Program-made: the position numbers and the translations under genes
NCBI GenBank assembly: GCA_029556545.1
Contig: JAKQEQ010000007.1
Coordinates: 1 to 64,000 of the forward strand
Source: Candidatus Hydrogenedentota bacterium
GTDB lineage: Bacteria > Hydrogenedentota > Hydrogenedentia > Hydrogenedentales > JAGMZX01
Direction of reading: 5' to 3'
DNA: 64,000 bases
Part shown: one piece after another, positions 34,900 through 45,427 of the stretch
Layout of the letters: the number at the start of each line of letters is the position of its first letter
How positions within the stretch are numbered: the first letter of the stretch is position 1
Notes under the pieces: generated by a model
Database searches by the model: none
What the model saw: only the letters and a program-made list of their open reading frames with translations
What the model was told of the DNA's origin: nothing

Positions 34900-35161
34900 G
34901 GAGTTGGACGAAACGCGACGAGGGTTGCACGACAGAATTGAAGTCAATGACCGAGCGCGCGTGATCGCATCGCCCTGCTGCGACGCCACCGCAGTGTGGG
35001 AATCCCGATGGGCTCCGTGCGCGAGGCGGGGGTAAGGCTGTCGCGTCGATCATTCGCCGTGAAATTCCAAGTGGGCATGGAGTGCATGGGTAAACCGCCT
35101 CTGCCTGCCCGAAATGTTTGTGCGCGTGGTGGGACAGAGGCCCTCTAAGGAGGCAGAAGCG

Positions 35162-37381
35162 ATGTATCAGGTCATCAGGAGTGTATCGAGCGTCGGGGGG
35201 CTTGTGGCGGCTTTCGTCTTGATCGGAGGGGGAGCGGCTTTCGGGGAGGTGTGCAATGCGCCGGATAACGGCGGCACCGTGGCGCTTCCAGCGAACTGTC
35301 CCTACGTGAATCAAGGGGGTACGCTGGACATCGTGGACGGCCTACCACCCGGCACCACGATCCAGATCGATTACCAGATAGACAGTTTTTTTGACGTCTT
35401 TACGGAGGTCGGCGGTGACTTGGGCGGACAACAGATTACCTTCGGCGCAACTATGCGAATGAAGATGACCGGTACGGGGATGCTTGCGGGCTACACGTAT
35501 GCCCTCGACATGCCGCTGCTGTCCGTGGTCGAACACACGGCCCCACGCACGCCGGGCCAACCGGTGCAGCGTTTTGCCTGCCAGTTGTTCCAACTCGACG
35601 GGCAGGTGACCGGCGATTCGCTTTTCGATCTCCTTCGAGTCGAGTCGGGCACCGACGCGGGCCTTCTCGCCGCAGGTCAAACTATACTGACCCAACTTCC
35701 CGGCGGTGACTGGCACGTGGACAGCTTCTTTGATATCACGTACCGAATCGAATTTGTCGGGGCGCCCGGCGGGCCGCTCGCGGGCATGTCGGGTACGAGC
35801 ACAGACACGGTCCGCACCCAACAGGGGGAACCCTACCCGTGGGACCACTGCAACGTCTTCAACATCGAGTTTGGTGATGCCGGCGAATTTCTCGGCGGCG
35901 GCGGCGACGGCTGGAACGGCGACGGCCTAGGCCCTTGGTACTATTACGAGAACACCGATTGGTGGAACGAGTGGTATTACGACGGCGAACTCGACCTGGA
36001 ACGCTATAAGGACGTGTGGCTGCAGTTGAACGTCAACCCCACTGACGTGGGATCTAACGTCACGATCGCTCTCAACTACAGTTCCGGAGGATACCCGCCC
36101 GCCACAGGGGAGCCGCCGGTTCCGCCACTAGACCCGGTCGACGAAGAGCAGTGGATCGTCCGAGACATCCTGTACGGACCTATCGAGGTGACGGGACCCA
36201 CACCGCTTGACTTTTTCGTGAATATTCCGGACTTCAACCCGGAATGGGTCTCCATTGACGTGCGGGGCGTGGACGTGTTGATCAACGGCACGATCTGCCA
36301 TTCCTGCCTGCCGGCGGCCGAAGGCGAAGGCGAGGGGGAGGGCGAGGGCGAGGGTGAAGGTGAAGGCGAGGGTGAAGGCGAGGGCGAGGGCGAGGGCGAA
36401 GACTGCCCTCCCGACACCATCTACGGGCAACGACCGTTTACCCCCTTGGAGCCTGTGGCGTACTTCCCGAGCGATGAGACCGCCGCGCTCTTGGGCTATC
36501 CGTTGCCATGGGACAACTTCCCGCCGCCGGGCGTGCCGATCTGCGACCTGCATTGGTGGGGTTTTGAAGTGGACGCGACAACGGCGCCCTGTATGCGCGC
36601 GCCGGATTTGTTCAATATCGATATTGCCGTTGATGTCGGTGGACATGCGGGTCCCCCTGTGTGCACGTACACCGTATCGGCCACGAAGACGAACACGGGT
36701 ATCAGCTATCTCGCCTACACGCTCTACCGATATGACGCGGTGCTGGATCCGTGTTGTGTACTTCCGCCGGGAACAATGGGCTGGCTGAACATACGGGGCA
36801 CGGGCAGCATGGCCTGCTTGTTCGTCTGGCTCGGTTCGCCGCAGGGCGACGGGCAAATGACGCTCTTCAGCAGCAGCACGGGATTCGTCCCATACGCCGG
36901 CGATCTCAGTTTCTGCCTGACGCCCGGGGGCGCGGAAGGTGAGGGCGAAGGCGAGGGTGAGGGCGAGGGTGAGGGCGAGGGCGAAGGCGAAGGCGAAGGC
37001 GAGGGAGAATGCGTAAACAATCCCCAAGGGTGCCCGCAACCTTACGGCGGTCTCTACGAGGTTGGCGGCGAGCTTTGCTTGTGCGTGCCGTGTCCCATCT
37101 CCGCAACCACCTCGTTCGTGTGGGCTAAAGACGGGATTGCGCTCGCAAATGACGGGCGGATCACCGGCGCTACCGCCCGGACGCTGCGCATCCTCACGCT
37201 GGTGGAAAGCGACAGCGGGGTGTATTCGTGCATCTACGACGACGGGACAAAGGTGGTGCAGGTCTTCGAGGCCCATGTGGTCGTGGGTGAAAACGTGCCC
37301 GCGTTGGGGCCAATCGCCCTCCTCGTGCTTGCCGCCGCGTGCGGCGCCGCAGGGGGCGTTATGCGATATAGACGCCGCTGA
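35162..37381 (+). CDS. Surface protein with two Glu-Gly linkers, Ig-like domain and C-terminal anchor
   Basis: 739 residues. AAGGAGG eight nt before the ATG; signal peptide with core GGLVAAFVLIGGGAAFG. The N-terminal domain (about 360 residues) is unrecognised. A linker of 27 residues alternating E and G follows, then a Cys-containing middle domain, a second 25-residue E/G linker and an Ig-like domain (SFVWAKDGIALANDGRI, TLRILTLVESDSGVYSC). The C-terminus reads VPALGPIALLVLAAACGAAG then RYRRR: motif, hydrophobic helix and basic tail, like a sorting or anchoring signal. Long E-G runs as interdomain linkers are common in Hydrogenedentota proteins as far as I recall. Probably displayed on the cell surface; no catalytic motif seen. 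Confidence 0.85.
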   Translation: MYQVIRSVSSVGGLVAAFVLIGGGAAFGEVCNAPDNGGTVALPANCPYVNQGGTLDIVDGLPPGTTIQIDYQIDSFFDVFTEVGGDLGGQQITFGATMRMKMTGTGMLAGYTYALDMPLLSVVEHTAPRTPGQPVQRFACQLFQLDGQVTGDSLFDLLRVESGTDAGLLAAGQTILTQLPGGDWHVDSFFDITYRIEFVGAPGGPLAGMSGTSTDTVRTQQGEPYPWDHCNVFNIEFGDAGEFLGGGGDGWNGDGLGPWYYYENTDWWNEWYYDGELDLERYKDVWLQLNVNPTDVGSNVTIALNYSSGGYPPATGEPPVPPLDPVDEEQWIVRDILYGPIEVTGPTPLDFFVNIPDFNPEWVSIDVRGVDVLINGTICHSCLPAAEGEGEGEGEGEGEGEGEGEGEGEGEGEDCPPDTIYGQRPFTPLEPVAYFPSDETAALLGYPLPWDNFPPPGVPICDLHWWGFEVDATTAPCMRAPDLFNIDIAVDVGGHAGPPVCTYTVSATKTNTGISYLAYTLYRYDAVLDPCCVLPPGTMGWLNIRGTGSMACLFVWLGSPQGDGQMTLFSSSTGFVPYAGDLSFCLTPGGAEGEGEGEGEGEGEGEGEGEGEGEGECVNNPQGCPQPYGGLYEVGGELCLCVPCPISATTSFVWAKDGIALANDGRITGATARTLRILTLVESDSGVYSCIYDDGTKVVQVFEAHVVVGENVPALGPIALLVLAAACGAAGGVMRYRRR
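36320..36400 (+). repeat. Codon repeat encoding (Glu-Gly)13-Glu
   Basis: 81 bp of alternating GAA/GAG and GGC/GGT/GGG codons. A low-complexity 6-nt period, prone to slippage, in frame between two domains. Confidence 0.95.
36935..37009 (+). repeat. Codon repeat encoding (Glu-Gly)12-Glu
   Basis: 75 bp of the same 6-nt-period repeat, placed between the middle domain and the Ig-like domain of the same gene. Confidence 0.95.
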
Positions 37382-37447: not shown

Positions 37448-37607
37448 GCTCTTGTTGCCAAGATCCGTAGTGTTTCTGGGCGGTTGTCGCCCTCTTCCCG
37501 GCTGTGTTCCAGCTTCCTGCATCCTGTTTCCGTTCATCCGTTCTGTTATCATGGCGCCCGCGTGGCCGGTATTTGCGTTTCTCGGTCCGATACGTGGAGA
37601 GTGCCCG

Positions 37608-38960
37608 ATGACAAAACGGCAATATGTGCTTCTATCTCTGATCATGGCGGCCTGCTCGTTTCTGGGCGGCGCCGTCGCCTCGTTCTTCTTTCACGGCGTT
37701 CCGGTGTATGCGGCGAGTCCCACGCTGCGCGCCGAGCAACTCGTGCTCGTGGACGCGCGCGGCAAAATACGCGCGGCGCTCGGCGTCACCAGCGACAACG
37801 TGGCGAAACTGGGCTTCTTCGACGCGGCGGGCGCGCCCGCGGGCGCCGTCGGCGCGGCGCCGACCGCGGGGGGCGGGCTTGGCTTCTACGACCGCCGCGG
37901 TCTGCTGCGCGGCCTCGTCTCGATGGCCGACGACGGCGCGACCGCCATCGGACTTTACGACAAGGAGGGCGTGTCGCGGGTCGCGCTTGCCATCGACGGC
38001 CAGGGCGCGGGCTCGCTCAGTTTCGACGATGGCGCGGACCAGCCGCGACTGCTCCTTGGCGCGGGTGCAAGCGGCGCGCCGGCAATCAGCATGCGCGACG
38101 CCGCAGGGCGCGCGCGGCTGGCCCTCAGCATGACACAGGACAATAAGACCGCCCTCGGTCTCTACGACGAGAGCGGCTTCGCCCGCGCCGCCACCGTGGT
38201 CTCCGCCGATGGCACGGCCAAGCTCGGCATCTACGGTAACGCGGGCGCGGCCAGCGCCGTGCTCGCCACCACACCCGGCGGCGCCACCGAACTGGGCCTC
38301 TACGATGCCGCAGGGCAGGCCCGTGTCTCCCTCGGCGCGGGCGCGGACGGCAGTTCGACCTTGAGCCTTCACGACGCGGAAGGCACGGCCCGCGCCCTGT
38401 TCGCCGCCCGCGTCGACGGCGAATCCCGGCTCGTGTTCAACGACCCGCAGGGCGTGGTCCGCGCCGCCATCGGCGCGGGCTCGAACGGCGCGCCCGCCCT
38501 CGGACTGCGCGACGCCGCGGGGGTAGACCGCGTCGCGCTCGTCCTCGCTGAGAGCGGCATGCCGTCGCTGAGCCTCCACGACGGCGCGGGTGCGGGCAGA
38601 ACCGCCCTTACCGTGGACGAAGAAGGGCGGTCAAGCATCGAATTCGCTGATGCCGCCGGCACGGTACGCAGCGCCGTTGGCGCTGCCGCGAACGGCGCGC
38701 CTTCCTTGAGCCTGCGAGACGCCGCCGGCGTGAAGCGGCTCGCCCTCGCCGTCGGGGTCGATGGGGCGACCACGCTGTTCTTCGTCAACGCGGACGGATT
38801 GCCCCAAGCCTCCCTCGCCGCGCAGCCCGGCGCCAAGCCAGGGCTCAGCTTCTACAGCGATGCCGGCGATACCTTGGCCGTCTTCGGCGTCAGCCCGGAC
38901 GACAAGCCCGCGCTCATCCTCAAGGACAAGGATGGCAACGTGACTTGGTCCGCGAAGTAG
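37608..38960 (+). CDS. Exported protein made of seventeen 23-residue repeats
   Basis: 450 residues. An N-terminal hydrophobic segment (YVLLSLIMAACSFLGGAVAS) acts as signal or anchor. From residue 45 to 435 the protein is seventeen consecutive repeats of exactly 23 residues with no insertion or deletion, then a 15-residue partial repeat to the end. The consensus is roughly L-x-L-x-D-x-x-G-x-x-R-x-x-L, then about nine variable, Gly/Ala/Asp-rich residues. The regular alternation predicts a beta-solenoid or similar elongated fold. Single units of this type (LVDARGKIRAAL) occur in other bacterial hypothetical proteins; I know of no established function. GGAGAG precedes the ATG; an earlier in-frame start lacks a ribosome site. 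It stands alone between terminator-like and promoter elements. Confidence 0.85.
   Translation: MTKRQYVLLSLIMAACSFLGGAVASFFFHGVPVYAASPTLRAEQLVLVDARGKIRAALGVTSDNVAKLGFFDAAGAPAGAVGAAPTAGGGLGFYDRRGLLRGLVSMADDGATAIGLYDKEGVSRVALAIDGQGAGSLSFDDGADQPRLLLGAGASGAPAISMRDAAGRARLALSMTQDNKTALGLYDESGFARAATVVSADGTAKLGIYGNAGAASAVLATTPGGATELGLYDAAGQARVSLGAGADGSSTLSLHDAEGTARALFAARVDGESRLVFNDPQGVVRAAIGAGSNGAPALGLRDAAGVDRVALVLAESGMPSLSLHDGAGAGRTALTVDEEGRSSIEFADAAGTVRSAVGAAANGAPSLSLRDAAGVKRLALAVGVDGATTLFFVNADGLPQASLAAQPGAKPGLSFYSDAGDTLAVFGVSPDDKPALILKDKDGNVTWSAK
37740..38912 (+). repeat. Seventeen in-frame 69-bp coding repeats
   Basis: DNA of the 23-residue repeat array. Units are divergent in sequence but identical in length, seen by aligning each L-x-x-x-D-x-x-G start. 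Confidence 0.88.
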
Positions 38961-39089
38961 CGAGGAATCTAATAAGTCTGAGAAACTCTAGGCGACTTAA
39001 GCTCACTCGCGCACGGCCGTCGGGGAGTTCCCAATAAGCGCCTGCCCGCTACCCGGAGGCAGCATTTCGATATCGCTGTCAGCGGCCGT

Positions 39090-39118
39090 TTGCACTTCGC
39101 ATTATTTCCTGTTATGAT
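39090..39118 (+). promoter_or_regulatory. Promoter of the MarR-racemase operon
   Basis: TTGCAC (39090-39095), a 17-nt spacer, and TATGAT (39113-39118). Transcription would start about 39125, some 30 nt before the first gene. Confidence 0.78.
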
Positions 39119-39138
39119 ATTTCCCATGCAAAATATCA
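39115..39138. promoter_or_regulatory. Inverted-repeat operator over the -10 box, probable MarR site
   Basis: TGATATTT (39115-39122) and AAATATCA (39131-39138) form perfect 8-bp arms with an 8-nt spacer. They cover the -10 box and the transcription start. An AT-rich palindrome at this place directly before a MarR gene is the usual arrangement for autorepression. Confidence 0.75.
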
Positions 39139-39154
39139 ACCAAGAGAGGCGCTC

Positions 39155-40219
39155 ATGCCCTTGACCGACTGCGAAGAAATGGTTGTCGAGCTGCGTAAGA
39201 TCATACATTTACTTGACTTACACTCCAGATGGCTAAACCGGGAATATGCGCTGACCAGCCCACAACTGGTCTTCCTGAAGGAGATTGGCGGCCAGGAAGG
39301 CATCACTATCGGGGACTTGGCCAAGCGGACCAGCCTCAGTTGCGCCACGGCCACAGGCATTGTGGACCGTCTCGAACGGCGCGGTTTGGTGGCGCGCAGT
39401 CGAAATGGGCGCGATCGGCGTCAGGTACAACTCCACTTGACGCCAACTGGCCGCGAGACCTGCGAACGCCGCCCGCCGATACTGCAGGAGACCTTCGTGC
39501 AGGGGTTGGAGCGTCTGGAACCCGCGGAACGGCGGCGGCTTCTGGACAGCCTGCGACGGTTGACCGCGATGATGTCGGGCCTGGTGGAAGACCGTATGCC
39601 ATCCCCCGCGGCGGTCGCGGAAATACTGGCGAACGCTCCGGAGGCCGCCTGCGCGGCTCAGGATTCGCCCGCGGAGTTTCTCGAGTCCTGTCGCATGTTG
39701 TTGGCGGGCGCCTCGAATGCGGATTCCCCCGACGCCGCTCCAGGAAACGGGGGGCCGGACGGGGTAGGTATCCATGTGGCGCGCTCGCGAACGGCGCTTG
39801 AGGCGCGCGTCGCTGTACCCGCGCTTGCCCGATTCCTACACGAGCACCTCAAACCTTACGAGGATCCGGAAGACGCGGTCCTCGAAGGCATCGAATACGC
39901 GCTCTCGGAGGAGCCGGGCAAGGGCGGATTCGTGCTGCTGGCCGAACTGGACGGCGAATTGGCGGGCGCGCTGGTGATGCTGAACACGGGGATGCGCCGC
40001 TACGTGCCGCCGAACCTGCTCCTGTTCATCGCGGTGGACGCCGCACACCGGGGCCGGGGTATCGGTGCCCGACTTGTTCGTAAGGCGCAGTCGCTGGTGG
40101 AAGGCGACATCAAGCTGCACGTCGAGTACGAGAATCCCGCACGTCGCTTGTATGAGCGACTCGGTTTCTCCAGCAAGTACGCGGAAATGAGGTGGGCTCA
40201 TGAGCCGCGTAACGGTTAA
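39155..40219 (+). CDS. MarR-family regulator fused to a GNAT acetyltransferase
   Basis: 354 residues. Residues 1-145 are a MarR winged helix (LTSPQLVFLKEI, ITIGDLAKRTSLSCATATGIVDRLERRGLV, SRNGRDRRQVQLHLTPTG). Residues of about 210-350 are a GNAT domain with the acetyl-CoA-binding HRGRGIGARLV motif and the closing ENPARRLYERLGF. Such fusions probably repress DNA and acetylate, or sense through, the same small molecule. A promoter overlapped by a perfect inverted repeat lies directly upstream. The stop overlaps the racemase gene by 20 nt. It resembles self-resistance or amino-acid-modifying switches; the substrate may be the amino acid handled by the operon. Confidence 0.9.
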   Translation: MPLTDCEEMVVELRKIIHLLDLHSRWLNREYALTSPQLVFLKEIGGQEGITIGDLAKRTSLSCATATGIVDRLERRGLVARSRNGRDRRQVQLHLTPTGRETCERRPPILQETFVQGLERLEPAERRRLLDSLRRLTAMMSGLVEDRMPSPAAVAEILANAPEAACAAQDSPAEFLESCRMLLAGASNADSPDAAPGNGGPDGVGIHVARSRTALEARVAVPALARFLHEHLKPYEDPEDAVLEGIEYALSEEPGKGGFVLLAELDGELAGALVMLNTGMRRYVPPNLLLFIAVDAAHRGRGIGARLVRKAQSLVEGDIKLHVEYENPARRLYERLGFSSKYAEMRWAHEPRNG

Positions 40220-41288
40220 TATCGAGGCGCTTTCGGCGAACCTCGAGGCCATAGACCGGTTGATGACCGGTCACGGCGCCGCCTGGACGCTGGTGACCAA
40301 GGTGCTGTGCGGCAACACCGCCATAATGCGGGTGCTCGCGTCGATGGGCGTGCGCTCGGTCGGCGAGTCGCGGCTGACGCACCTGCGTGCCGTACGCCGC
40401 GTCTTCGAGGACCCGGAAACCTGGTACCTGCGGATTCCCCGGCTCTCGATGTGCAACACCGTGGTCACAATGGCCCACGTAAGCCTTAACAGCGAAATCG
40501 AGACCATTGCGCGCTTGAACGAAGCCGCGGCCGCCAAGGACAAGGTGCACCGCGTCGTCATCATGATCGAACTCGGCGACCTGCGCGAAGGCATTCTGCC
40601 CGGCTCGCTCATCGCCTTCTACGACGCGGTCTTTCGCCTGCCGCACATCGAGGTCATCGGGATCGGCACGAACCTCGGCTGTCTGGCCGGCGTGCCGCCG
40701 ACCGTCGACCAACTGATGCAACTGGTGCTCTATCGCGAATTGCTCGAACTCAAGTTCAATAAGCCGTTGCCGCTTATTTCGGCTGGCTCCAGCGTTGTCT
40801 TGCCCTTGCTTGTCGAAGGACAGGTTCCCAAGGCCATCAATCACTTTCGGATCGGCGAGGCCCTGTTCCTGGGCTCGGACCTCGTGCATGGCGGTACGCT
40901 GCCGGGGTTTCGGGACGACGTCATGCTCCTCGATGCGGAGATCGTCGAGTTGAAGGAGAAGGGCATGGCGCCGATCGGCGAGAGCGGGGTGACATCCCCC
41001 TTCCAGGCCATGCCCAACGGAGATGCCGCGCCCGGACAGCGCGGTTACCGCGCGCTGGTAAGCATGGGCCAGCTGGATACGGAGATCACGGGGCTGACGC
41101 CGACCCAACCGGACTACCAGATTGTCGGGGCCAGCAGCGACATTACCGTCGTCAACATCGGCGAGAACCCGCGCAACCTGCGTATCGGCGACACGGTAAC
41201 GTTCCGCATGAATTACGCCGCGCTGTTGCGCCTCATGAGCAGCCGCTACGTGACGAAGGAAATCATTGGCACAAGGGAGGATGGCTGA
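40200..41288 (+). CDS. PLP-dependent amino-acid racemase, ornithine racemase-like
   Basis: 362-residue fold type III PLP enzyme of the alanine/ornithine racemase family. The PLP lysine is K34 in LVTKVLCGN. Whole-length landmarks match ornithine racemase: LRIPRLS, VSLNSEIETI, VHRVVIMIELGDLREG, GIGTNL, NHFRIGEALFLG, VELKEKGMAPIGE, GQLDTEI and IVGASSDITVV. It would interconvert L- and D-forms of an amino acid, with ornithine the best guess. GAGGTGG lies before the ATG, inside the end of the MarR-acetyltransferase gene, so translation is coupled. The methyltransferase and symporter that follow suggest that the D- or L-amino acid is imported or further modified. Confidence 0.88.
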   Translation: MSRVTVNIEALSANLEAIDRLMTGHGAAWTLVTKVLCGNTAIMRVLASMGVRSVGESRLTHLRAVRRVFEDPETWYLRIPRLSMCNTVVTMAHVSLNSEIETIARLNEAAAAKDKVHRVVIMIELGDLREGILPGSLIAFYDAVFRLPHIEVIGIGTNLGCLAGVPPTVDQLMQLVLYRELLELKFNKPLPLISAGSSVVLPLLVEGQVPKAINHFRIGEALFLGSDLVHGGTLPGFRDDVMLLDAEIVELKEKGMAPIGESGVTSPFQAMPNGDAAPGQRGYRALVSMGQLDTEITGLTPTQPDYQIVGASSDITVVNIGENPRNLRIGDTVTFRMNYAALLRLMSSRYVTKEIIGTREDG

Positions 41289-41321
41289 CCGCGCCGCGCC
41301 CGCGACGGGAGGACAGCACAG

Positions 41322-42368
41322 TTGAAGCTACATGAACGGATTGCCAGCGACCTGTCTACGTGGAACCGCTGCGCCCGCGCGTATGAAGATGCGATTGTGC
41401 TCGGACACCCGGACGTGTGCGCCTATGAAGCCTTCGAGGAGGATTTCCTCGATGCGCTTCTCCTGTACCTCATTCGTGACGCGGGCGTTTGCGTGCGATT
41501 GTTCGACGTGGGTTGCGGCTCGGCCCGGCTGCACCTGCGCTACGGCAGGAAGACCACGCCGCTTCCGCGAAATGAAACGAATGGTTCCATCGCGCCGGAC
41601 CCCATCATGGCCGCGGGCCTGTCGCGGATAGACGGCATCGACTTCTCCGCGGAGATGCTCGAAATCGCGCACGCCAAGCTTGAAGCCGCCGGCCTGCTCC
41701 CGAGGGCGGCCGACCGTATCGGCCTCCGGCAAGGGTCGGCGTTCGATCTCGAGGCCATGCCCGGCGAGGGCGTTCCGGTGGCCGTGGCGGTGTGTAACAC
41801 CATCGGCGTCATGCAAGGCCCCGAAGGCGCGCGAAAGCTGCTCGATGCCGTGCGCCGCGTCGTCGAACCGGAGGGCGGCGTCGCGCTGATCAGCGCATAC
41901 CGGAAAGACGCCGTCGCCAGCCACGCACTCGGCAATTACGAAAGTACCATGCACGTTTCCGGCCAGCCGTGTTGGCTGAAGCCGGCGAAGTTTGTGTCGC
42001 GCGACGTCGTTCCCGTCCCTCTCGATATCAAGCGCGCGTTCGACCCGAAGGCGACGATTCGCGTTGCCGCGCGGAACCAGGCCGGCGAAACCGTCGAGGA
42101 ATACCTCCTTGAACGCGACCCCGACGAAGTAAAGCGGACGATTTCAAGGGGCCACATTCGGACGTATTGGGATTACGAGTCGCACTGGTACTCGACGGCG
42201 CGCCTGCGTCGATGGATGGATGAAATCTGGGCCGGGCTGCCGCACCGGCATATCGCGGGCGGCGCCCTCGACCGTGTGCGCGCCGGCCCCGCCCAGTTGG
42301 CCGTGCTCGACGCGGGCGGCAGGCTCGAGGCCTTCTTCGCGCGCCTCGGTATGCGGAAAGGAACGTGA
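41322..42368 (+). CDS. Class I SAM-dependent methyltransferase
   Basis: 348 residues. The SAM-binding motif I is VRLFDVGCGSARLHLRYG, followed by the acidic loop IDGIDFSAEML and the substrate-site strand AVAVCNTIGVMQG. The gene starts with TTG, supported by a GGGAGGA ribosome site eight nt upstream and by the lack of a nearby ATG. It lies 33 nt after the racemase and 4 nt before the symporter gene, in the same direction. The methyl acceptor is unknown; the operon points to an amino acid or its derivative. No membrane segment or signal peptide. Confidence 0.83.
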   Translation: MKLHERIASDLSTWNRCARAYEDAIVLGHPDVCAYEAFEEDFLDALLLYLIRDAGVCVRLFDVGCGSARLHLRYGRKTTPLPRNETNGSIAPDPIMAAGLSRIDGIDFSAEMLEIAHAKLEAAGLLPRAADRIGLRQGSAFDLEAMPGEGVPVAVAVCNTIGVMQGPEGARKLLDAVRRVVEPEGGVALISAYRKDAVASHALGNYESTMHVSGQPCWLKPAKFVSRDVVPVPLDIKRAFDPKATIRVAARNQAGETVEEYLLERDPDEVKRTISRGHIRTYWDYESHWYSTARLRRWMDEIWAGLPHRHIAGGALDRVRAGPAQLAVLDAGGRLEAFFARLGMRKGT

Positions 42369-42372
42369 CGGC

Positions 42373-44208
42373 GTGAGCGGCAACTGGATTATGTGGGCCA
42401 TCGTGCTTGGCTATCTCACCTTCGTGTTTTCGAAGGGCGTGCTCAAGGTGCGGCAGGTCTCAAATACGGACGACTTCCTCGTGGCGGGCCGGAATGTGGG
42501 GTGGTTCTTCCTTCTCTGTACAATGGGCGCGACGGTTGTGGGCGGCGGCGCGTCCATCGGCGCGATCGGGCGCACCTACGACTGGGGCGTGCTCATGCTC
42601 CTCGTGTCCTTGGGCTGGTACCTGCACTTCATTTTCGCCGGCCTTTGGGTGGCGCCGCGCTTTCGCGAGGCGAAGTTGTACACCGTCGCCGGATATTTCG
42701 GCCATCGCTTCGGCGAGGGGCCGCGCTTTTTCGCCCTGTTATTGTCCCTATTGTTCTCCGTCTTTATCGTCGCCGCGCAAATGGCCGCGTTCGGCAGCGT
42801 CATGGCGGCCATTGCGCCGCAACTCGCCGATGCCGAGAACGTGCTGCGCTGGGCCATCCTGATCGGCGGCGTGCTCGTGATCACCTACAGCACGGCGGGC
42901 GGCCTGCTCGCCGTGATCCACACGGACGTATACCAGTTCATCATCCTGATCGTGGGGTTCGCCATCACCCTGGCGTTTTGCGTGCCGGACCTCCTCGAAT
43001 CCTACGACGACCGCACCGGCAAGTTCGTGCCATTGCGCTTCTCCAGCGTGGATATACGGTCCCCGGAGGCGTTCGCCGAGACGTTGGGCCGCGGCGACGA
43101 TCCCGTGGCCCGTTACCTGCTCGAGACCGCGGGCGCCGCGGAAGCGACGAATGACGGGAAGATCGACGCGGCCGCGATCGCCGCGATGCTCAATCGCGCC
43201 CTCGACGACCCGGAACTGTACGCCCCGGAACGCTTCGCCCATGTATCGCTCAGCCGCCAGGTGCGCGAGTTGCTCGAAGGTGAGGCCAACGGAAGACGGC
43301 TACGGCGGCTGAATCTCTCGCTAATCCAAGACGCCTTTCCCGACTTCATATCGCCAAACCGCGCGATAGCGCCGTCCTTCTTTCGCATGCATGGCGATAA
43401 GGGGTGGCTCTTCCTCATCACCACCTTTCTCGCTTTTCTCCTCGGCGAGTGTTTCGCGCCCGGGTATGCGACCCGGTACTGCGTGGGCAAGAACATCCGC
43501 GAAACCCGCATCGGCATCGTCGGGGCCGGCGTGTTTCTCGCCTTGGTCTTTCCCGCGATTCTTTTCTTCATCGCCCTGTACGCGCGTATTCATTACCCGG
43601 CCATCGACCCGCAACAGGCATTGCCGCGCGTCGTGTATCAACTGCACAATCCCGCAATCACGGGCCTCATCATCGGCGCGCTGCTGATGGCCGTCATGTC
43701 CTCCGCCGACAGCGCCCTCAACTCGGCTACCGCCATCTTCGTCAAGGACCTTTTCGAGCACCAATTCGGCTGGCGCGACGACCAGCGGCATCGCCTCCTC
43801 AAACTTGCCCGCCTGTGCAGCATGGCCCTCGGCGGCATGGCGATTCTTGTCGCTGTGCTCTGGTCCGACATCATCGGCCTGCTCTTGTTCACCTACCACG
43901 TCTGGGCGCCCGCCGTTATTGTGCCCGTGTGCGTGGGCGCGCTGTCGCGCAGTCCCTCGCGCCGCCAGAACCGCATTGTGCTCGCCACCATGATCGCCGC
44001 CACCGCCGCCACGCTGCTCTACCGCCTGCCCCAGGCACTCGAACACCACTTCGGGCTGCGCATCCTTCCAGATGCACTGCACGACTTGACCGCCCGTCTC
44101 GACCCCGCCGTATTCGGCGTCGCCGTGTCCCTGCTCGTCTTTGGCGCGCTTACCGGGACCGCAAGGGGGCTCTACGGCCCCGCGCCCAAGTTCACCCAAG
44201 GCGGATGA
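42373..44208 (+). CDS. Sodium:solute symporter (SSS family) with large internal insertion
   Basis: 611-residue membrane transporter. The helices include WAIVLGYLTFVFS, NVGWFFLLCTMGATVVGG and the family segment ITYSTAGGLLAVIHTDVYQF; later ALLMAVMSSADSALNSATAI is the conserved sodium-site region. Between about residues 207 and 344 lies a hydrophilic insertion of some 138 residues, much longer than the usual loop, with helical and charged character. The start is GTG at 42373 behind AAGGAA; an ATG six codons later is possible. It starts 4 nt after the methyltransferase stop. It probably imports the substrate of the operon, such as an amino acid or a quaternary amine. Confidence 0.88.
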   Translation: MSGNWIMWAIVLGYLTFVFSKGVLKVRQVSNTDDFLVAGRNVGWFFLLCTMGATVVGGGASIGAIGRTYDWGVLMLLVSLGWYLHFIFAGLWVAPRFREAKLYTVAGYFGHRFGEGPRFFALLLSLLFSVFIVAAQMAAFGSVMAAIAPQLADAENVLRWAILIGGVLVITYSTAGGLLAVIHTDVYQFIILIVGFAITLAFCVPDLLESYDDRTGKFVPLRFSSVDIRSPEAFAETLGRGDDPVARYLLETAGAAEATNDGKIDAAAIAAMLNRALDDPELYAPERFAHVSLSRQVRELLEGEANGRRLRRLNLSLIQDAFPDFISPNRAIAPSFFRMHGDKGWLFLITTFLAFLLGECFAPGYATRYCVGKNIRETRIGIVGAGVFLALVFPAILFFIALYARIHYPAIDPQQALPRVVYQLHNPAITGLIIGALLMAVMSSADSALNSATAIFVKDLFEHQFGWRDDQRHRLLKLARLCSMALGGMAILVAVLWSDIIGLLLFTYHVWAPAVIVPVCVGALSRSPSRRQNRIVLATMIAATAATLLYRLPQALEHHFGLRILPDALHDLTARLDPAVFGVAVSLLVFGALTGTARGLYGPAPKFTQGG

Positions 44209-44449
44209 GATCCCGACGTGCGAGATATCTCGGTCGTGGCGCACGGGGGATGCTGCTCGCGTTGATGTCCCGCATGTGCTGGACTGCCCCGAGGCAGCGT
44301 CAACATGTTCAGGCCCGTAACTTGGAAGAGCTTTTTGGACGGGACGTTCCGGTATTGGCATGAGAATCCACGCCTCGGGGTGATTCTGCCAGTATCCCCC
44401 GCATATACTCTGTGGCGCGTCGGGATACCTGAGGCAGGGGGTGAGACCC

Positions 44450-45427
44450 ATGGAAGTGCGCCGCATCTCGAGTCCGCCGCCCAATGCGGCGGCGTTTATT
44501 GCGGAGATTGCCGCCGGAATCGAAGCGCTTTACGGGCCTCTAGCCGCGGAGCATTATCGCCGGACGGCCCCTGAAGGGTTGTGCGCTACCTTGGCCCATC
44601 CGACGGTGTACGCCGTGGCCGCGTTCAACGAATGGGGTGAGGCGCTGGGTTACCTCGTCGCCGTGCAACGGGCGCCTGCGGCGCACATCACGTTCCTTCA
44701 TGTCCTGTCGGGGTGGGACGGACAAAGCATCGAGAACCGGCTGGTCGAGCGCGCGGCGGGCGACTTCCAGCGCGCCGGCCTGGACCATATCGTGTGCGAG
44801 TGTGTCCCTTTCTGCCGCCTTGACCTTTCGTGCACGTTCTCGGCGTTCGGTTTCGAACGCATCGAGCGTGTTCTGATGATGGCTTCGGTGCAAGACACGG
44901 GGAGCGCGCCAAAGGCCCGAGCGCCGATCTCTTCCGCTGTAGCCGGTCCTTCCACCCCGCGGGTTCTAACCCTGGATGCCGGCCTCCGGCGTGCGGCGGC
45001 GGAGTGCCTGGTGGAAGCGTATCGCGACAGTCGTGGGCGTCGGCTTCACATGGAGGTCACGGATGTAGACCGTGCCCAGGTCTTTGTCTCGCGCGTGGCC
45101 GCGGGCGGTTTTGGCCATGTCCACGCGGAGTACGGCAAGGCGGTTTTCGAAGGGGACCAATGCGTGGCCGTCGCGCTTGGCTGCGAGACCGCGCCGGACG
45201 TCGGGTTTGTCCTGCAGGTGGCGGTCCGGCCCAAATGGCGCCGGCAAGGATTCGGCACGTTACTGCTGCACGAACTGGCCGCGTCGTTCCGGCAGACGGG
45301 GCTGACGCGCGTCGCGCTCGGCGTGACGAGAGACAATCCCGCGCGTCTGCTCTACGAGCGGCTTGGCTTCACCGCGTTGCGTCCCGTCGACGCCTACGTC
45401 TGGTGGCGGCCGGGGCGGGAACCTTGA
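44450..45427 (+). CDS. Protein with two GNAT acetyltransferase domains
   Basis: 325 residues. The C-terminal half is a clear GNAT domain (FVLQVAVRPKWRRQGFGTLLLHEL, acetyl-CoA motif RRQGFG, and NPARLLYERLGF). The N-terminal half (residues 1-140) has the size and strand pattern of a second GNAT domain (ALGYLVAVQRAP, TFLHVLSGWDGQSIENRLVERA) but lacks a clean acetyl-CoA glycine loop, so it may be a degenerate copy. ATG at 44450 with GGGGGTGAG upstream; a GTG at 44441 is an alternative. It follows the symporter after 241 nt and may belong to the same functional group. Confidence 0.78.
   Translation: MEVRRISSPPPNAAAFIAEIAAGIEALYGPLAAEHYRRTAPEGLCATLAHPTVYAVAAFNEWGEALGYLVAVQRAPAAHITFLHVLSGWDGQSIENRLVERAAGDFQRAGLDHIVCECVPFCRLDLSCTFSAFGFERIERVLMMASVQDTGSAPKARAPISSAVAGPSTPRVLTLDAGLRRAAAECLVEAYRDSRGRRLHMEVTDVDRAQVFVSRVAAGGFGHVHAEYGKAVFEGDQCVAVALGCETAPDVGFVLQVAVRPKWRRQGFGTLLLHELAASFRQTGLTRVALGVTRDNPARLLYERLGFTALRPVDAYVWWRPGREP

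Follow-up and report, generated by a model that had tools for sequence, protein, structure and literature searches.

Among the closest described counterparts of the locus considered here are gene clusters for compatible solutes. In the ectoine system, EctR recognizes an A/T-rich pseudo-palindrome made up of two 8-bp half-sites, which overlaps a -10 region (PMC5924519), CosR represses ectABC, betIBA-proXWV, bccT3 and proVWX (PMC7876524), and the compatible-solute importers encoded next to ect clusters include EctI proteins of the sodium:solute symporter (SSS) type (PMC13342039). Known compatible solutes also include N-acetylated lysines (PMC4685198; PMC1224877), and beta-amino acids suit this role since they are not incorporated in proteins (reviewed in PMC1224877). 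Here we describe four genes in a 64,000-nt stretch of DNA (the window) from a Candidatus Hydrogenedentota bacterium (contig JAKQEQ010000007.1, positions 1 to 64,000), which we tentatively read, at somewhat short of even confidence, as a self-repressed compatible-solute (osmolyte) operon.

The four genes lie on the forward strand and encode a fusion of a MarR regulator with a GNAT acetyltransferase (39155-40219; Pfam MarR, E-value 3e-16; Acetyltransf_1, 1e-12), a pyridoxal phosphate (PLP) racemase of an apparent sister clade of the ornithine racemase Orr (40200-41288; Ala_racemase_N, 1e-16), a class I S-adenosylmethionine methyltransferase with a TTG start (41322-42368; Methyltransf_25, 3e-7) and an SSS symporter with a GTG start (42373-44208; SSF, 2e-34). 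They were found where the original prediction, made from the sequence alone, had placed them, with a 20-nt overlap followed by gaps of 33 and 4 nt. The TTG and GTG starts coincide with orthologue starts in alignments. In all seven relatives from the window's phylum the racemase start lies 20 or 26 nt inside the upstream gene, which suggests translational coupling of the racemase with the gene preceding it. An Rfam scan returned no RNA element.

Upstream lies a sigma70-like promoter (39091-39118, forward strand) with the boxes TTGCAC (39091-39096) and TATGAT (39113-39118). It was the single site in a scan of positions 38900-44600, where it was scored as TTTGCA plus TATGAT, but with 1.1 sites expected in shuffled sequences such a consensus match is no proof by itself; -35 and -10 boxes are also present upstream in relatives. 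As had been predicted, a perfect inverted repeat covers this promoter. The candidate operator TGATATTT-N8-AAATATCA (39115-39138, no strand assigned) consists of two 8-bp arms (39115-39122 and 39131-39138) with an 8-nt spacer and overlaps the TATGAT box, and it has the form of an EctR/CosR site, namely an AT-rich pseudo-palindrome of 8-bp half-sites over a -10 box. Across the organism's own 6.1-Mb genome it is the sole match at two or fewer mismatches. Within the window, where no operator-like site is expected by chance, the sole other match (15375, three mismatches) lies in a tandem repeat. Matches at 14-17 of 20 positions were found at the promoters of four relatives (G001, G016, G038 and G041), 14-21 nt before the start codon; the operator consensus was built from sequences of these same relatives, so that the shuffle fractions are partly circular, which does not apply to the constant position.

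Among 68 genomes sampled from the phylum, 8, the window's genome included, carry the racemase clade, and a ninth racemase match (G054) falls on the other side of the racemase tree described below. All four genes recur in the same order in G001 and G016. The fusion, racemase and symporter are present in G038, a GNAT (at the contig edge), racemase and methyltransferase in G051, and the fusion and racemase in G041, G043 and G045, with methyltransferase and symporter not seen on the short contigs of the latter three. The flanking genes vary among relatives, and the conserved order is therefore not mere synteny. A search of genome contigs with the single racemase sequence returned one locus only. 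This neighbourhood comparison, named with the original prediction as one way in which it might fail, found the four genes recurring together and left it unrefuted. The proposal that they form one self-regulated operon is well supported by the conserved order, the operator over the -10 box and the uniqueness of that site in the genome. Methyltransferase and symporter, each absent from some relatives, appear to be accessory parts of the operon.

The regulator points to compatible solutes. Within 39155-40219 on the forward strand, Pfam delimits an EctR/CosR-like MarR part (residues ~1-145) and a GNAT part (residues ~206-354). A comparison of the MarR part against 72,556 plasmid records gave 233 matching records, and six of the eight relatives fetched from the top of that list stand beside compatible-solute genes, a proportion that is indicative only. 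Their neighbours comprise ectAB with proVWX, ectABCD, ectABC-ask and BCCT carriers (Pfam E-values below 1e-170); of the two remaining relatives, L111 has no compatible-solute genes in view and L117 was not annotated. An unrelated MarR paralogue of the same genome matches other plasmid records than the fused MarR does. The latter appears to be EctR/CosR-like and kin to repressors that act on genes for ectoine, betaine and BCCT carriers. The GNAT part scores 48.7 bits against PF00583 (cut-off 20.7), and in nine sequences the arginine and both glycines of the acetyl-CoA motif R-x-x-G-x-G are invariant, as is the C-terminal tyrosine in YERLGF.

The association of GNAT and racemase extends well beyond the phylum. 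In a racemase profile search over 386 genomes with subsequent reading of the neighbourhoods, a GNAT gene stands immediately before the racemase in G358, G251, G374, G265, G155, G324, G312 and G362, and likewise in G330, G195, G189, G097, G147, G148 and G100; on a Persicobacter plasmid both belong to the same cluster, separated by two genes. The lineages span at least six phyla, the Bacteroidota and those of G000, G097, G100, G251 and G265, enumerated separately. In most of them the GNAT is a free gene of ~145 aa without a regulator. In a different phylum, G251 keeps the order GNAT, racemase, methyltransferase, SSS, and G390, also of that phylum, has racemase, methyltransferase and SSS, its upstream side being cut off by the contig end. 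MarR, GNAT, racemase and SSS are separate genes in G265, as are MarR, GNAT and racemase in G100, and the free MarRs of both genomes retain the C-terminal APLL/APVL ending of the EctR/CosR-like family. Because MarR and GNAT stand there as separate neighbours, the first gene of the operon is a fusion of two genes that lie side by side elsewhere. The original prediction saw in it a sensor and acetylating regulator. That description calls for correction: outside the phylum, the racemase is accompanied by a stand-alone GNAT enzyme gene, any MarR being encoded apart from it, and the fusion is better read as one between a repressor and what is probably an enzyme of the pathway.

In some lineages the cluster is larger. 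At L049:23-4942, L097:1840-7074 and L043:6805-12600, the GNAT-linked racemase and an SSS are accompanied by an M20 hydrolase and by a second gene of the alanine-racemase-like type, with the last three genes of the L049 cluster overlapping by 4 and 1 nt. For the M20 proteins of L049, Persicobacter and G100, where this same gene set was found, the top named function is DoeB2, an N2-acetyl-diaminobutyrate deacetylase, at 171-212 bits and below the cut-off of 550. The M20 and alanine-racemase-like pair alone is not specific, because the lysine-type cluster of Salinicoccus has such a pair as well (PMC4685198). In G324, an Asp/Glu-racemase-like gene, recognized by eye, follows the GNAT-racemase pair (L086:8491-9180).

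To place the racemase itself, 45 racemases were compared in a maximum-likelihood tree, in which phyla other than the window's are represented by one or few genomes each. One branch with a support of 100/100 and a length of ~1 splits 27 racemases from 18. On the window's side, all 24 assessable rows have a GNAT beside the racemase or in the same cluster, and the other 3 start at a contig end; on the opposite side a GNAT accompanies none of the 18, although these counts are not independent events. The 18 include an Ilyobacter protein annotated as Orr, the racemase of Acetoanaerobium (A. noterae), which follows OraS/OraE-like genes in open reading frames read by eye, and three racemases preceded by a DUF1611/DgcN-like acetyltransferase. 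Because this branch parts the GNAT side from the Orr-containing side, the GNAT-linked racemases appear to be a sister family of Orr and not Orr.

The likeness to ornithine racemase that had been proposed needs qualifying: the match to the NCBIfam Orr profile (NF040742; 297.7 bits, E-value 1.1e-88) is full-length, but the enzyme falls in a separate, GNAT-paired clade. The window racemase is ~34-37% identical to the Ilyobacter Orr and the Acetoanaerobium protein and shares with the Orr of D-ornithine aminomutase (OraSE) clusters the superfamily, the PLP lysine and active-site residues. Unlike those enzymes, it lies in a clade on a long branch, has no oraSE beside it and belongs to a group always found with a GNAT. 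An assignment to Orr was rejected, as the score remains below the NF040742 cut-off of 480 and the protein stands across the 100/100 split. It scores 61 bits against Ala_racemase_N (PF01168; cut-off 24). K34, the presumed PLP lysine, is conserved in all aligned relatives and, with many other residues, common to both sides of the tree; Y76, Y141, D170, Q174, L177, Y178 and L181 are specific to the GNAT side. Profiles of the racemase and the methyltransferase found no sequence relative among solved structures, and AlphaFold models were of low confidence (mean predicted local distance difference test score 37 for the racemase and 34 for the methyltransferase) and were not used. In the literature collection searched, no paper combined ornithine racemase and GNAT.

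Of the two accessory genes, the methyltransferase reaches 31.6 bits against Methyltransf_25 (cut-off 27) and no named subfamily at its cut-off; orthologues were found in five other genomes of two phyla (G001, G016, G051, G251 and G390). The symporter scores 119.8 bits against SSF (PF00474; cut-off 22.8) and 66.7 bits against the PutP equivalog, whose cut-off of 515.5 is not reached. Its orthologues are 57-80% identical in six loci, with another in G390. An insert of ~110 aa (residues ~212-330) occurs in the window's phylum and is absent from the orthologues in L082, L084 and L049, and the window's symporter has no more than a distant likeness to the SSS genes found in Persicobacter and G100. 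Searching plasmids with the symporter returned distant symporters only, the best one outside an osmolyte context.

The original prediction had left the product of the pathway between a D- or L-amino acid, an antibiotic and an osmolyte. Among these we favour the osmolyte because of the regulator's kinship to EctR/CosR. At low osmolarity, a dimer of the MarR-GNAT protein would block the operon promoter; under salt stress, MarR would be released and the enzymes made. The racemase would then invert an amino acid at the alpha carbon to give its D form, most likely of a diamino acid (ornithine, lysine or 2,4-diaminobutyrate) because of its kinship to Orr, and the GNAT would acetylate an amino group, yielding a neutral zwitterion that is not used in protein synthesis. 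A PLP racemase requires a free alpha-amino group, and the enzyme would therefore act before alpha-acetylation or on a substrate acetylated in the side chain. We infer that the joint product of the two enzymes is a (di)amino acid that is N-acetylated and probably of D configuration. The symporter would bring in the solute or its precursor, the methyltransferase may in some lineages modify the solute further, and in three other lineages the M20 hydrolase and second alanine-racemase-like protein may take it apart again. By analogy with beta-amino acids, D-amino acids would suit a solute role, as they too are not built into proteins.

Compared with ectoine clusters, ectABC(D) with EctR/CosR and EctI, the locus shares an EctR/CosR-like MarR, an operator whose 8-bp half-sites cover the -10 box, an acetyltransferase of the GNAT type (in EctA, one that acts on a diamino acid) and a putative SSS importer. 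It differs in its racemase and methyltransferase, its fused MarR, a GNAT that is not EctA by profile and the lack of ectB and ectC at the locus; EctC was not found in the organism's genome either, although control genomes were silent too. With the abl operon, where lysine-2,3-aminomutase (AblA) and an acetyltransferase (AblB) produce N-epsilon-acetyl-beta-lysine, it would share the principle of making a non-protein isomer and then acetylating it, but the window encodes a PLP racemase, which would invert the alpha carbon instead of shifting an amino group, and its GNAT does not match AblB.

Several observations weigh against an osmolyte operon. The spacer of the candidate operator measures 8 nt versus 2 in EctR sites, and the fusion lacks the C-terminal signature of the D-x-D-[AV]-[AS]-P-[VL]-L type found in the relatives fetched, having linker and GNAT in its place; furthermore, the specificity of a MarR can change while its fold is kept. 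The GNAT matched neither EctA nor AblB of NCBIfam at 1e-3, no named osmolyte transporter comes as close to the symporter as a general SSS profile does, and the methyltransferase is left without an explained role. Finally, the pairs in G155, G324, G312, G362, G330, G195, G189 and G097 have no adjoining MarR or similar SSS, and the pair may therefore have a wider role.

Such pairs also fit the chief rival, D-amino-acid salvage or detoxification, in which the SSS would import D- or mixed amino acids, the racemase convert them and the GNAT trap one enantiomer in N-acetylated form, giving one-way flux like that of DgcN, with MarR sensing the amino acid. Most GNAT-racemase pairs have no adjoining osmotic-stress gene, and dgcN has been described as key to an irreversible racemization pathway (PMC12363236). 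A DgcN-like (DUF1611) acetyltransferase is paired with an Orr-type racemase in Vibrio lentus (E-value 2e-46 against the DgcN profile, below its cut-off), G072 and G364. Pairing of acetyltransferase and racemase has therefore arisen with two unrelated acetyltransferases; the DgcN pairs resemble ours in that an N-acetyltransferase immediately precedes an amino-acid racemase, but their racemase lies on the other side of the tree, and no EctR/CosR or SSS was seen with them. We consider salvage fairly unlikely, given that the regulator is EctR/CosR-like in all three lineages that show one, that the candidate operator would serve autoregulation and looks like an EctR site, and that the locus shows no dehydrogenase, oxidase or deaminase for D-amino acids. 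Two further explanations seem less probable. The methyltransferase that follows the racemase in five further genomes from two phyla, and the capacity of Orr-like enzymes to make D-diamino acids, would agree with a methylated and acetylated D-amino acid destined for the envelope or a secondary metabolite; we regard this as improbable, as the operon contains no ligase, nonribosomal peptide synthetase or Mur-type gene and carriers such as G038, G041 and G265 have no methyltransferase adjoining the pair. Slightly more improbable is that proteins are the substrates of the GNAT (its own regulator part, the racemase or some target), which would make the first gene a regulatory device and the racemase the sole metabolic enzyme. 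The fusion to a DNA-binding domain would fit, as would the solved structures nearest to the GNAT profile, which are those of uncharacterized acetyltransferases and protein N-alpha-acetyltransferases; in most lineages, however, the ~145-aa free GNAT is tied to the racemase alone, as for a two-step pathway. A chance assembly of unrelated co-directional genes could account for the absence of the methyltransferase or SSS beside the pair in several relatives, but is very unlikely in view of an order kept across genera and phyla amid varying flanks, overlapping starts and a shared promoter and operator.

Returning to the osmolyte operon, a more doubtful extension, which we put on the unlikely side of possible, is that N-acetylated and sometimes methylated D-amino or D-diamino acids constitute an undescribed class of solutes, made by a dedicated racemase-GNAT pair in at least six phyla and placed here under an EctR/CosR-type repressor joined to the acetyltransferase. 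A racemase subfamily bound to one acetyltransferase across phyla would mark a two-step pathway that databases would label ornithine racemase. If a D-configured osmolyte is made, it would represent a new chemical class of compatible solutes and an intracellular use for D-amino acids, and the fusion would be a new repressor-enzyme protein in which an enzyme of the pathway may act as reporter of its own substrate. The proposal is open to experiment now, since a related cluster is present in a named isolate, Persicobacter sp. JZB09.

Outside the operon and its pairs, DUF1611/DgcN-like genes directly precede Orr-type racemases at L099:4706-7044 (a conjugative plasmid of Vibrio lentus) and in L048 and L103 (two genomes). 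A double-GNAT protein (44450-45427) follows the SSS gene on the same strand, 241 nt downstream as had been noted, but it was rejected as an operon member because no orthologue adjoins the operon in any other locus compared. Directly upstream on the same strand, positions 37452-38960 encode a protein of ~500 aa composed of degenerate LGLYDxxGxxRxxL repeats, which none of the relatives' loci showed next to the operon. Farther upstream, a 755-aa surface-type protein (35114-37381) contains two Gly-Glu (GEGEGE) low-complexity stretches (36319-36401 and 36935-37013).

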